From Candidatus Caldarchaeum subterraneum (GTDB lineage Archaea; Thermoproteota; Nitrososphaeria_A; Caldarchaeales; Caldarchaeaceae): a stretch of DNA of 53,051 bases. The position numbers and the translations under genes are program-made. This document shows positions 45,140-49,347 of this stretch, piece by piece. Location of the stretch: the NCBI GenBank assembly GCA_000270325.1, contig BA000048.1:404933-457983 (forward strand), in the 5' to 3' direction. Within the stretch, counting starts at the first letter, position 1. The number at the start of each line of letters is the position of its first letter. Under the pieces are notes generated by a model that saw nothing but the letters and a program-made list of their open reading frames with translations, searched no databases and was not told the origin of the DNA.

Positions 45140-45704
45140 AAAAGTTCCTAGCCGTCTGGACAACAACTTCGGCGACCTGCTTCGGACTAAGCCCTGAGGT
45201 ATCGACTATAAGATGTAAAGGAGAAAAATCACGGCCAATCCTGATGTCGTAAAGCCGTTCATAGATTGCTGCGCTTTTCCTATCACGGCTCCTCAACAAA
45301 CGTGACGCCTGCTTCACAGAGATTTTGCTACGTTTAGCCATCCTCTCAGCCCTGCTCCTATAATCTGCGGTAAGCCACACCTTAAACGCTCTCCCTTTAT
45401 AGAGCCACGGCATCACCCACGAATCAACCACCACACCGCCACGTCTACAAATCTCCAACAGCTTCCTGTCAACCTTCCTATCAAAGCTGGGGTCACGGGC
45501 CCTCAGGCTGAGAAACTCTATCCCCTTAGCTGTCTCCCACCAGCCTGGGCCACCGGGCCGGTATCCCATCTCCGCGGCCAGCTCCTTGAGGGCGTCGCCT
45601 CCAGAGACATACTTTAGCCCAAGACGTTTAGCGACAATTTTTCCAACGGTGGATTTGCCTACGGCGGCGAACCCGGCGAGACAGATGACTGGTTTACCGG
45701 ACAT
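45102..45704 (-). CDS. cmk: Cytidylate kinase, archaeal type
   Basis: CMP kinase phosphorylates CMP and dCMP. The 200-residue P-loop protein has GFAAVGKSTVGKIVA, the archaeal CMK segment KYVSGGDALKELAAEMG, the VVVDSWVMPWL core and RSKISVKQASRLLRSRDRKSA. In most archaea cmk lies in the same direction as L34e, L14e and cbf5; here it is inverted, so it must use its own promoter, the shared TATA element with L14e. Confidence 0.92.
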   Translation of the reverse strand: MSGKPVICLAGFAAVGKSTVGKIVAKRLGLKYVSGGDALKELAAEMGYRPGGPGWWETAKGIEFLSLRARDPSFDRKVDRKLLEICRRGGVVVDSWVMPWLYKGRAFKVWLTADYRSRAERMAKRSKISVKQASRLLRSRDRKSAAIYERLYDIRIGRDFSPLHLIVDTSGLSPKQVAEVVVQTARNFFKAPTRRRRRQE

Positions 45705-45767
45705 GGCGAGACCCGGCTCCAGCGGAATTTATGTATAAAAATCGTCGGTGCACGTGTTTTTGCAGCC
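45705..45767. promoter_or_regulatory. Shared TATA element between cmk and L14e
   Basis: The 63-nt gap holds ATTTATGTATAAAAAT (45727-45742), a near-palindromic AT element with TATAAAAA on the plus strand and a TATACATAAAT reading on the minus strand. Its middle is about 30-33 nt from each start codon. No other TATA-like box is seen in the gap. Confidence 0.55.
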
Positions 45768-46091
45768 ATGGTTGATGAATCGTTTGTAGGACGTGTAGTG
45801 GTCAAGACGCGGGGCAGGGACGCAGGGCTGAAGGGAGTGGTTGTATCAGTCTACGGAGACGGCTACGTCCTTGTCACAGGCCCCAAACCCCTAACTGGAC
45901 TGAGAAGGAGAAGAGTGAACGCTTCACACATCATTCCCACACCTCACAAGCTTTCAATAACGAAAGAAGCTTCAGACGAGGATGTGATGAAAGCCATAAA
46001 GGAAGCCGGTTTGGAAAAATATATGGCTGAACCACATGCAATCAAACAATCCGCCTTGGAAGCGGAGCTACGAAGTCCTCGTCAAACGTGA
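45768..46091 (+). CDS. rpl14e: Ribosomal protein L14e
   Basis: This 107-residue KOW-type large-subunit protein has GRVVVKTRGRDAGLKGVVVSV near the N-terminus and GPKPLTGLRRRRVNASHIIPT, matching archaeal L14e. It is followed by cbf5, a conserved order, and the two genes overlap by 56 nt in different frames, which is long for this window. Confidence 0.94.
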   Translation: MVDESFVGRVVVKTRGRDAGLKGVVVSVYGDGYVLVTGPKPLTGLRRRRVNASHIIPTPHKLSITKEASDEDVMKAIKEAGLEKYMAEPHAIKQSALEAELRSPRQT

Positions 46092-47060
46092 AGCGGAGAC
46101 GGACCAGAGGTACGGCAAGCCACCTGACCAACGAAGCCTAGACGAGCTGCTGAACCTTGGGGTAATAAACCTTGACAAGCAACGGGGGCCGACAAGCCAC
46201 GAAGTAGCATACATGGCTAAGAAAATCATGGGCGTGGAGTTGGCTGGTCACGGCGGGACCCTAGAACCGTATGGGGAAATCCCGCCGTCTCCGGCGTCCT
46301 ACCAATTCTCCTGAATGAGGCTACAAAAGTTTCAAATGTGTTCATGCATGGGGGCAAGGAATATGTCGGGTTGATGGAGCTTCATGGCGACGTCTCTGAC
46401 GATAAGCTGCTGGAAGCCTTCAAAATCTTCACGGGAGACGTTTACCAAGTTCCTCCGGTGAGGGCCTCTGTAGCGAGAAGGCCGAGGATTAGGCGTGTCT
46501 ACTATTTTGATTTGCTTGAGAGAGACGGTCGCTACATCTTATTCAGAATAGGGTGCTCAGGCGGAACCTACGTCAGAAAAATCTGTCATGACATGGGGCT
46601 CTACCTCGGGGTCGGCGCACACATGGAAGAGCTTAGAAGAACGAGAGCAGGCTCGCTGGAGGAGAAAAACAGCGTAACACTTCTGCAGGTCTACGAAGCC
46701 TTTGAAAAATACAGAGAAACAGGGGACGAAGAGGCGGTGCGTAAAGTAGTGTATCCTGTTGAGAAATGTCTGGAGCTTTTGCCCAAGGTCTACATTCTGG
46801 ATACGGCAGTTGACGCCGTATGCCATGGCGCCGACTTGATGGTGGCAGGTGTCTCGATGATTGACTCCGACGTTGCGGAAAACAGCGAAGTGGCTGTGAT
46901 GACTTTGAAGAACGAGCTGGTGGCTCTCGGGAAAGCCGCGATGGATGCACAATCAATCCTAGAAGCATCCGAAGGAATGGCCGTTGACGTAACACGAGTC
47001 ATCATGCACAAGTCCACTTATCCACCAGTCTGGAAAGGAGGTCTACAGCGTGTCCAATAA
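46036..47060 (+). CDS. cbf5: Pseudouridine synthase Cbf5, interrupted by a 14-nt intron
   Basis: Cbf5 is the catalytic subunit of H/ACA guide RNPs and also modifies tRNA U55. Two exons, 46036-46264 and 46279-47060, join in frame into 336 residues. Exon 1 has PWKRSYEVLVKREAETDQRYG, GVINLDKQRGPTSHE and GHGGTL; exon 2 continues DPAVSGVLPILLNEATK, GTYVRKICHDMG and a C-terminal PUA domain ending VIMHKSTYPPVWKGG. The split codon is GAT for the catalytic Asp (residue 77). Unspliced, the frame ends at 46314 without that Asp. BHB-type cbf5 introns are known from Crenarchaeota. tRNA-Ser follows 33 nt downstream. Confidence 0.9.
46265..46278 (+). other. Archaeal protein-gene intron, 14 nt, in cbf5
   Basis: Exon flanks CGGCGGGA (46251-46258) and TCCCGCCG (46280-46287) pair perfectly over 8 bp. 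Inside, CCCT (46259-46262) pairs with GGGG (46273-46276), leaving AGA and AAA as the two 3-nt bulges with a 7-nt loop. Cutting after the second bulge base on each side removes exactly 46265-46278 and joins CTAG to ATCCC, restoring GGTLDPAVSG. The internal stem is almost absent, so the motif is nearer bulge-helix-loop than full bulge-helix-bulge. A one-base shift of both junctions gives the same mRNA. Confidence 0.85.
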
Positions 47061-47069
47061 AACCTAATA
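47058..47069 (+). promoter_or_regulatory. Possible promoter of tRNA-Ser
   Basis: AAAACCTAATAC, beginning at the cbf5 stop codon, is centred about 30 nt before the first base of the tRNA, the expected box A position for an archaeal tRNA promoter. Confidence 0.4.
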
Positions 47070-47093
47070 CAACCCGCTCAGTGGATGACATGA

Positions 47094-47180
47094 GCCGGGG
47101 TCCCTCAGCCAGGTAGAGGGCAGGCCTGGAGAGCCTGTGGCCCTAACCGGGCCGCGTGGGTTCAAATCCCACCCCCGGCG
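47094..47180 (+). tRNA. tRNA-Ser (GGA)
   Basis: The 87-nt sequence folds as a type II tRNA. The acceptor stem pairs GCCGGGG with CCCCGGC, with discriminator G at 47180. The D stem is CCTC/GAGG, the anticodon stem CAGGC/GCCTG with loop CTGGAGA, so the anticodon is GGA. The variable arm is long (GGCCC/GGGCC with loop TAACC), and the T stem is GTGGG/CCCAC with TTCAAAT. The long arm and anticodon both indicate serine (UCC/UCU codons). There is no intron and CCA is not encoded. Confidence 0.97.
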
Positions 47181-47185
47181 TTTTT
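47181..47185 (+). terminator. Poly-T terminator after tRNA-Ser
   Basis: Five Ts directly follow the discriminator base. Archaeal RNA polymerase terminates on short T runs, so this probably ends the tRNA transcript. Confidence 0.4.
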
Positions 47186-47233
47186 GAGAGAACCCGTGTG
47201 AATTTTGCTCGTCGAATGCGCCCGGTTTTCACA

Positions 47234-47243
47234 TGTTTATATA
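47234..47243 (+). promoter_or_regulatory. TATA box of the CBS-domain gene
   Basis: The strong TTTATATATT element is centred 29 nt before ATG 47268, giving a leaderless transcript. It is the clearest TATA box in the window. Confidence 0.6.
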
Positions 47244-47267
47244 TTTGCTGACCCCTTATCCTATTGA

Positions 47268-47654
47268 ATGTTGCTGAAGCAGCTGGTGAGAAGAGGGCCT
47301 ATAACCATAGATTCTTCTGCGACTCTTTATGATGTTGTCAGGATTATGGCGGAGCAGAACATCGGGTTTATTGTTGTTTTGGAGAATGGGCGGATGGTTG
47401 GGGTTTTGTCTGAGCGGGATGTGGTGCGGACGCTTGCTGAGCGGAGGGACTTTGGTGTGAAGGTGGGTGAGATTTGTAAAAGAGATATTATCACCCTTCC
47501 CGCTGACGCCTCTGTTGAGGATGCTGCCGAGGAGATGGGGAGGCATAGGATAAGACATATTGTTGTGGTCGATAACGCGGGCAAGCTCGTGGGGGTGGTG
47601 TCGGCGAGAGACGTTCTCCAGGAGCTATACGCCCAGGAGAGTGGAACAGACTAG
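47268..47654 (+). CDS. CBS-domain pair protein
   Basis: This 128-residue protein consists of two CBS domains (about residues 8-60 and 72-125), each with the usual strand-helix order (IGFIVVLENGRMVGVLSERDVV and IRHIVVVDNAGKLVGVVSARDVL). Stand-alone CBS pairs bind adenine nucleotides or S-adenosyl compounds and sense energy or ligand state. No partner enzyme domain is attached. It is transcribed toward the ABC ATPase, whose start is 46 nt further on, so it might modulate that transporter; this is only a positional hint. Confidence 0.9.
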   Translation: MLLKQLVRRGPITIDSSATLYDVVRIMAEQNIGFIVVLENGRMVGVLSERDVVRTLAERRDFGVKVGEICKRDIITLPADASVEDAAEEMGRHRIRHIVVVDNAGKLVGVVSARDVLQELYAQESGTD

Positions 47655-47700
47655 GTTACTCTCAACCAGCCGCCGTTTAAGTTGCCGGCAAGAGCTTTGC

Positions 47701-48675
47701 ATGGGAAGTGACATGGGATTGGTCGTTCTCGAGAACGTAACCGCCTCGTATAACATGCGGCGAGGCCTGTTGGGGTCGCGTTCAGTAAAGGTTGTCGACG
47801 GCGTCAGCCTCTCCATACCCGAGAACGAGGCTGTGGCTTTGGTTGGTGAGTCGGGTAGCGGGAAAACAACCGTCGGGAAACTGAGCATAAGACTTCTCAA
47901 ACCACTCACCGGCCGAATATTCTACGATGGATTAGATGTGACCCGTCTGCCTGAAAATAGGTTGGGAAAACTGAGGCGGGAGACACGCATGATTTTCCAA
48001 GACCCCTACGCAAGCCTCAACCCTTACATGAGTGTAGGAGAGTTTGTTGAGGAGCCGCTGCTTATCCATGGTGTGGAGGACAAAGCAGAGAGGGTTGAAA
48101 TTGTTTACAAGGCTCTCGAGGAAGTGAGGCTCACTCCGCCTCAGGATTTTGCGCAGAAATATCCGCATATGCTTTCGGGAGGCCAGCGTCAACGTGTCGC
48201 GATAGCACGAGCAATCGTGTTAAAGCCAAGGTACCTGGTCGCGGATGAGCCCGTCTCGATGATTGACGCATCTAGCAGAGCTGAGGTGCTTGAAGTGCTT
48301 AAGACGCTTCAGAAGGATTACCGCATGGCCATTCTATACATCGCCCATGATCTTGCGACGACGCGTTACTTCGCTGACAGGGTTGCGGTCATGTATCTGG
48401 GAAGGATAGTGGAGATGGGTGAAGTTGAGGAAATTTTGTCCGAGCCTCTGCACCCATACACACAGGGGTTGATAGCATCTATCCCCGAGCCTGACCCCGG
48501 CAACAGGTTTGTTGAGCGAGAGACTATACAAGGCGAGCCCCCCTCACCCCAGAACATCCCAAGCGGCTGCAGGTTTCATCCACGTTGTCCTAAGGCCTTT
48601 GAACGCTGCCGAGTTGAAGACCCGCCGCTCCGTGAAGTGAGAAGGGGCCGGTGGGTGGCCTGTCATTTATACTGA
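47701..48675 (+). CDS. Oligopeptide/dipeptide ABC transporter ATP-binding protein (OppF/DppF-like)
   Basis: This ATPase powers uptake of peptides or similar solutes delivered by family-5 binding proteins. From ATG 47701 the protein has 324 residues with Walker A GESGSGKTT, Q-loop QDPYASLNP, signature LSGGQRQR, Walker B YLVADEPVS and switch His in YIAHDLATT. It ends with the Opp-type C-terminal Cys motif GCRFHPRCPKAFERC. In DEPVSMID the residue order VSMID replaces the common TSALD, as in many OppF-type domains. The frame is open back to 47560, over the CBS gene, but that part is not conserved. No permease gene is in the window. Confidence 0.92.
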   Translation: MGSDMGLVVLENVTASYNMRRGLLGSRSVKVVDGVSLSIPENEAVALVGESGSGKTTVGKLSIRLLKPLTGRIFYDGLDVTRLPENRLGKLRRETRMIFQDPYASLNPYMSVGEFVEEPLLIHGVEDKAERVEIVYKALEEVRLTPPQDFAQKYPHMLSGGQRQRVAIARAIVLKPRYLVADEPVSMIDASSRAEVLEVLKTLQKDYRMAILYIAHDLATTRYFADRVAVMYLGRIVEMGEVEEILSEPLHPYTQGLIASIPEPDPGNRFVERETIQGEPPSPQNIPSGCRFHPRCPKAFERCRVEDPPLREVRRGRWVACHLY

Positions 48676-49347
48676 CGTGGTTGATGGGGGTTTCTGCTCT
48701 TCTGGCGGTTGTTTGTGACGGCTTTTCAACGCCTCGGATGCTGCGTGTCCTGTGTAGAGGAGGGCCGCCGCCAATATGGCTAAACCAGCCGCCGTCCATG
48801 GAGCCTTCTCCACCTCAACCCGCTCCGTGTCAACAACTGTGACAATCCTTTCCGAGACCACGGTGTTAGTGTTGAAGACATGCGTTGTCACGGTTTCGGT
48901 AACCCGTTCAGTCACGACAGCCGTAACTGTCTGTGTCACCGTTTTCGGCCTGATAACCGAGATGGTGAGCGAATAAACGCCGGCGGAGTCGCCGAACCCA
49001 AGCACAACTATGTAATGCGGCCCCTTTTCCACAGCCGTGTATTCAACTGCGTCAGTCAAACCGGTGGCGCGAACACTTTGTCCAACAATTTCCCTAAGAG
49101 GGTTGAGAAGATAGAGGTCAAAATCTTGGTTGGCGGCCATCCGCACCTTAGCGACCAGGATGTCACCCGGCTCAAGCATTATCTTGAAAAAATGTATCTC
49201 ACCCGGGGCGAGGGCGAACGAGTATGAGCCTGGTGTCAGCTCAAGAGCCGAGCTAAACCCTGTTCCCGGAACCAACCCCTGCCCATAAGCAGAAGAGGTA
49301 AACATTAGAGCCAGAAGCCAAGCTGCTAGAGCGACTCTCGGAACCAC
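48667..49347 (-). CDS. Surface protein with PPC-like domain, Thr/Val stalk and C-terminal anchor
   Basis: The 226-residue protein has a signal peptide (residues 1-22, VALAAWLLALMFTSSAYG). It then has a PPC-type beta domain (about 28-130, ALAPGEIHFFKIML, DFDLYLLNP, GPHYIVVLGFGDSAGVYSL), a Thr/Val-rich stalk (TVTQTVTAVVTERVTETVTT) and a membrane helix with a short basic Pro-rich tail inside. Such domains often assist secreted proteases or bind ligands at the surface; its own function is not known. A CGTTTAAACG box is centred 26 nt before the start. It overlaps the ABC ATPase end by 9 nt. Confidence 0.75.
   Translation of the reverse strand: MVPRVALAAWLLALMFTSSAYGQGLVPGTGFSSALELTPGSYSFALAPGEIHFFKIMLEPGDILVAKVRMAANQDFDLYLLNPLREIVGQSVRATGLTDAVEYTAVEKGPHYIVVLGFGDSAGVYSLTISVIRPKTVTQTVTAVVTERVTETVTTHVFNTNTVVSERIVTVVDTERVEVEKAPWTAAGLAILAAALLYTGHAASEALKSRHKQPPEEQKPPSTTSV

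Follow-up and report, generated by a model that had tools for sequence, protein, structure and literature searches.

A probable 14-nt bulge-helix-bulge-class intron in the catalytic Asp codon of cbf5 in Candidatus Caldarchaeum subterraneum

The closest described systems are the cbf5 introns of Crenarchaeota (Watanabe 2002; Yoshinari 2006; Yokobori 2009, PMC2738675). The 2009 survey reported introns of 16 to 44 nt in Sulfolobales and Desulfurococcales, located directly after the first letter of the catalytic Asp codon and in some cases verified by cDNA, and listed the intron as absent in Thermoproteales, two Thaumarchaeota and Korarchaeum (PMC2738675). The survey dated its gain to the ancestor shared by Desulfurococcales and Sulfolobales (PMC2738675); in 2020 the cbf5 intron was still termed the only such additional bulge-helix-bulge (BHB) intron, in crenarchaeota (PMC7714728). 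A role as a negative regulator was proposed in 2002. By the canonical rule, cleavage falls between the second and third bulge residue (Yokobori 2009, PMC2738675). Heteromeric EndA accepts relaxed motifs (PMC2738675), and bulge-helix-loop substrates are competent for some enzymes (PMC12397907).

We analyzed a 53,051-nt stretch of Ca. Caldarchaeum subterraneum DNA (the window), taken from a genome that consists of a single contig of 1,680,938 bp. The cbf5 reading frame in the window is lost at GGTL/DPAVSG, after position 46264, where the letters read ...GGT CAC GGC GGG ACC CTA G/AACCGTATGGGGAA/AT CCC GCC GTC TCC GGC... Unspliced, the upstream frame continues as ...GHGGTLEPYGEIPPSP and terminates at 46314, and DPAVSGVLP picks up in a different frame from the upstream GGTL. 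Excising 14 nt (46265-46278) restores GGTLDPAVSG, as a first-pass annotation of this DNA had proposed, and gives a single 336-amino-acid open reading frame (46036-47060) that encodes a full-length Cbf5. The spliced protein scores 392.9 bits against the NCBIfam CBF5 profile (TIGR00425; cut-off, 238 bits), compared with 65.8 and 288.2 bits for the two unspliced open reading frames (ORFs), and it aligns without gaps across GGTLDP to the P. furiosus Cbf5 structures (3lwo). We found no second full cbf5 match elsewhere in the same genome. The features of the locus are as follows.

46036-46264, plus strand: cbf5 exon 1, from the ORF list; its start overlaps the upstream gene, its last base, G, is base 1 of the Asp codon, and alone it gives 65.8 bits to TIGR00425
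46251-46258, plus strand: 5' strand of the outer helix, CGGCGGGA, from the folds
46259-46262, plus strand: exon side of the central helix, CCCT, paired in 99% over 105 introns, with compensatory changes
46263-46265, plus strand: 5' cleavage trinucleotide AGA, within the terminal loop; predicted cut after 46264 by the second/third-residue rule
46265-46278, plus strand: putative 14-nt BHB-type intron, AACCGTATGGGGAA, from frame restoration and same-site inserts in Caldarchaeia
46273-46276, plus strand: intron side of the central helix, GGGG, from the same 105-intron comparison
46277-46279, plus strand: 3' bulge AAA, from the folds; predicted cut after 46278 by the second/third-residue rule
46279-47060, plus strand: cbf5 exon 2, opening with AT, the rest of the Asp codon, and continuing as PAVSGVLP; it includes the PUA domain and ends at the stop codon 47058-47060
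46280-46287, plus strand: 3' strand of the outer helix, TCCCGCCG, from the folds

A tRNA-Ser(GGA) gene (47094-47180) lies on the same strand as cbf5 and begins 34 bp 3' of it.

We read the insert as a 14-nt archaeal pre-mRNA intron of the BHB class, in bulge-helix-loop form, that would be spliced by EndA and RtcB, belongs to the same family as the Sulfolobales/Desulfurococcales cbf5 introns and was inherited at least from the Caldarchaeia ancestor (probability of about 0.95). We infer splicing here from the sequence and its potential to fold, from conservation and covariation, from the synonymous constraint and from the enzymes that the genome encodes. The question of a shared position with the crenarchaeal introns has a direct answer, since both interrupt the Asp codon after its first letter (Yokobori 2009); with the same gene and position, the kind of intron is therefore already known. 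The likeness extends to BHB-like exon pairing, commonly relaxed motifs, a variable interior and a heteromeric EndA. The Caldarchaeum intron differs in its host, which is outside Sulfolobales and Desulfurococcales, in its length (14 nt, and 13 nt in relatives, versus the published 16 to 44 nt), in having no intron-internal helix and in that its splicing is predicted, whereas that of the crenarchaeal introns is cDNA based.

The order to which the organism belongs makes up the whole class in the collection used, and the cbf5 site was readable in 41 of its genomes. An insert is present at the identical nucleotide in 27 of the 41 and missing from the other 14. The inserts are 13, 14, 16, 17, 19, 20, 21, 22 or 23 nt long, so that they span all three classes modulo 3, and they carry in-frame stops. 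The 21-nt intron of G007 (L047) preserves the frame but brings an in-frame TAG with it, and gene callers might take it for a split gene or for recoding. All four members of the window's genus have a 14-nt insert in which the loops have diverged and the stems are conserved. The first-pass annotation had placed the insert near the smallest possible size. However, 14 nt is not the minimum, with 13 nt found in relatives and tRNA introns down to 11 nt. We rejected an apparent 11-nt intron in L043 as a chance pattern match, the true intron there being 20 nt. In-frame stops in family f8 that could have been taken for unspliced inserts or recoding are simply gene ends. The 14 intronless genes have an uninterrupted GGTLDP and all come from one family-level group. 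In L005-L009 and L011-L019 (f4; genera g10, g11, g12 and g14), there is a clean apparent single intron loss, and the GGG-ACC-CTA codons are relaxed.

The exon flanks can form an 8-bp exon-exon outer helix (46251-46258 with 46280-46287), followed by a 4-bp central helix that includes one G-U pair (46259-46262 with 46273-46276). These two helices and the AAA bulge agree with the structure first drawn for the site, which had two 3-nt bulges; RNAfold gives one bulge and a loop instead, an 8-nt terminal loop with the 5' AGA inside it and no closed 5' bulge. The strict hBHBh' motif was thus not found, in that the RNAfold structure has a loop where an intron-internal helix would be expected after the 5' bulge. 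The observation that there is almost no internal stem holds more widely, since the 13- and 14-nt introns have at most two possible intron-internal pairs. On these folds, the element is modeled as a bulge-helix-loop that has no helix inside the intron and is therefore a relaxed substrate. The minimum free energy for 51 nt is -28.3 kcal/mol (z, -3.7), and none of 200 shuffled sequences folded equally well. With longer flanks included, z falls to -1.9, and the fold alone is therefore only moderate evidence. In the 53 kb, each strand has a single occurrence of a strict motif with this geometry and an outer helix of 8 bp. Chance is ruled out because the motif coincides exactly with the frame break and is conserved in relatives: cuts between bulge residues 2 and 3 of the BHB-like geometry give exactly the frame-restoring cut (G^AT of Asp). 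A group I or group II intron finds no counterpart among the Rfam matches (E of ≤1, 45500-47500), which include no intron family, and the insert is only 14 nt.

We compared structures across 105 loci, each with a distinct intron. For the central 4-bp helix, 99.0% of cells are paired, a value that drops to at most 68% when the helix is slid by one base, and exon and intron sides change in a coordinated way (CCCT/GGGG, CTCT/AGAG, CCTT/AAGG and CACT/AGTG, that is, CG to TA and CG to AT). For the outer exon helix, covariation hardly exceeds what composition alone gives (65.9% paired versus a shuffle mean of 63.4%), and comparing codons between genes with and without the intron is more informative there. 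Leu is encoded by CTA at the site in 82% of intron genes; the share of CTA is 18% elsewhere in those genes, and among genes that lack the intron only 8.5% have CTA at the site. The corresponding values are 76%, 19% and 15.5% for Gly GGG and 78%, 24% and 31% for ACC. The GGG-ACC-CTA bias exists only where the intron exists and therefore reflects a synonymous constraint that vanishes without it. In 13 of the 105 loci the first intron base is G, T or C rather than A, so that the cut can no longer be shifted by one base and only G^AY remains.

Splicing endonuclease (PF01974, EndA) is represented by two genes in the genome. The catalytic EndA, in which Tyr, His and Lys are retained, has its nearest match in EndA of Aeropyrum pernix (3p1z_B; 2.6e-51), and the second aligns to EndA but is without the catalytic Tyr and His. 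The pair has the make-up of a heteromeric enzyme that accepts relaxed motifs, and its assembly is predicted. A gene for the RtcB ligase is also present (L222; G000:C1, about 46552-49290) and carries an intein, so the expected exon ligase itself needs protein splicing, a point that counts against our reading.

In the mechanism that we propose, the exon flanks of the transcript would pair around the Asp codon, and the heteromeric tRNA-splicing endonuclease (catalytic plus structural EndA) would cut after base 2 of each trinucleotide, at 46264 and 46278. RtcB would then ligate the exons to give the junction ...ACCCTAG/ATCCCGCC, and the product would read GGTL-D-PAVSG, an active pseudouridine synthase. 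Cleavage and ligation in Ca. Caldarchaeum are predicted from gene content and the site itself, and splicing is probably constitutive rather than regulated. Active Cbf5 would require splicing because the catalytic codon is split; this much of the first-pass annotation is borne out and had already been stated in 2009, when the unspliced form was noted to lose the catalytic codon (Yokobori 2009, PMC2738675). That an intron of 14 nt splits this codon is likewise supported by the relatives, the covariation, the synonymous constraint and the encoded enzymes.

Two other classes of short archaeal inserts bear comparison. Archaeal tRNA introns with relaxed BHB motifs would be processed by the same endonuclease and ligase, and the range quoted for them in PMC2738675, 11 to 175 nt, includes similar sizes; unlike these, the cbf5 intron lies in an mRNA, and the exon sequences on both sides of it are constrained by protein coding as well. 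The putative 12-bp introns of archaeal virus genes (Peng et al., as described in PMC2738675) are also very short and in protein genes. By that same account they keep the frame, with splicing undemonstrated, whereas the cbf5 insert must go for an active enzyme to be made.

The wider sample comprised 299 genomes of the phylum plus 80 named loci. Within it, an intron at the same site is found in dozens of family-level groups. Carriers in TACK include many Bathyarchaeota, one Methanomethylicota metagenome-assembled genome (MAG), two Thermofilaceae MAGs, Terraquivivens and Pelearchaeum. Asgard carriers are MAGs labeled Jordarchaeia, Freyarchaeota or Sigynarchaeota, and further Asgard clades have introns of 29 to 41 nt. 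The intron was not found in the euryarchaeal genes read or in Methanomethylicaceae, nor in f7, f12, f22, f39 and f43 as sampled (f7 from ungapped matches only). We excluded two second copies with introns because their contigs may be contaminants. They are L261 in G393 and L268 in G360, two Asgard-phylum genomes in which the extra, TACK-like cbf5 lies on a short contig and would reflect contamination or recent transfer. Compared with the published survey, the occurrences in Caldarchaeia, Bathyarchaeota, Methanomethylicota-type and Thermofilaceae MAGs and several Asgard clades are new, as are sizes down to 13 nt, although they may be noted elsewhere in a literature that we covered in part. The intron is thus much more widespread than that survey recorded, taking in the majority of deep TACK lineages and part of the Asgard archaea.

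Inteins occur in the Cbf5 of three genomes, two from Asgard archaea and one from the window's phylum (f5, which groups with Bathyarchaeota), at an identical site in all three, the active-site motif GTY(I/V)RKL/C. In addition to its intein, the f5 gene (G044) carries an intron of 22 nt at the Asp codon.

L273, 295-2802, minus strand: Cbf5 intein (Pfam Intein_splicing and LAGLIDADG)
L274, 175-2742, plus strand: Cbf5 intein (Pfam Intein_splicing and LAGLIDADG)
L137/L138: Cbf5 intein, from sequence resemblance

The best-surviving alternative accepts a real BHB intron but holds that it was gained independently of the crenarchaeal one, at a hot spot created by conserved GGTLDP codons that can form the needed helices. 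Intron state changes at least 19 to 20 times on Cbf5 gene trees, a count from one gene with weak deep support, and intronless sisters stand beside the Asgard intron clades. Under a two-rate model, the probability of the intron is 0.997 to 0.999 at the Caldarchaeia ancestor and at least 0.996 at the node joining Caldarchaeia and Bathyarchaeota. At the node shared with the crenarchaeal group (Sulfolobales/Desulfurococcales), it runs from 0.13 with all rows kept to 0.82 to 0.94 when poorly placed euryarchaeal rows are dropped, and at the TACK-plus-Asgard node it is at most 0.05. A model without losses fits much worse (lnL, -86.5) than one without gains (-74.2) or the free model (-70.1). Taken together, these fits and node probabilities make frequent loss of the intron very likely and an origin before Caldarchaeia well supported. 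A single origin for TACK or for TACK plus Asgard is possible under the same models, with recurrent gain or transfer as its main rival for the deepest part. Against independent gain stand the identical nucleotide position in dozens of families, the high probability for the shared ancestor once the misplaced rows are dropped, the poor resolution of the deep gene tree and losses that are demonstrably common, as in a whole Caldarchaeia subclade. We therefore regard independent gain as unlikely, though with appreciable weight. A deeper history is tentative, and we put it slightly below even odds: the mRNA intron would be ancient, fixed at a single nucleotide position from the TACK ancestor onward, or even from that of TACK and Asgard together, and would since have been lost many times and shortened repeatedly to a physical minimum of 13 to 14 nt.

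Programmed translational bypass, in which ribosomes would hop over the 14 nt with the aid of a hairpin and without RNA splicing, is very improbable. A strong hairpin does bridge the gap, and the crenarchaeal cases have been confused by others with translational frameshifting (Yokobori 2009, PMC2738675). However, the gap varies from 13 to 41 nt across genes with no constant pair of take-off and landing codons, what is conserved is an EndA-type bulge-helix geometry with canonical cut sites at the codon break, and in the crenarchaeal homologues the insert is removed from the RNA by splicing (Yokobori 2009, PMC2738675). An assembly or sequencing artefact, which the first-pass annotation had allowed for and which the composite reconstruction of this genome from an environmental population (PMC3293823) might suggest, or a decayed pseudogene is less probable still, being contradicted by 14-nt inserts of different loop sequence in independent same-genus MAGs (G001-G003; L200), by the order-wide conservation of the insert and by the lack of another full cbf5 match in the genome.

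For the intron reading, the same-nucleotide occurrence in Caldarchaeia, Bathyarchaeota, Asgard and other groups reopens the age of the cbf5 intron. If it does date to the TACK or TACK-Asgard ancestor, few introns of protein genes with a conserved position would be older, and it would not be the crenarchaeal novelty that was published. The more than 100 intron sequences and many losses are a large natural data set for intron gain, loss and size limits, and they carry the warning that cbf5 is probably split or misannotated in many archaeal genomes.
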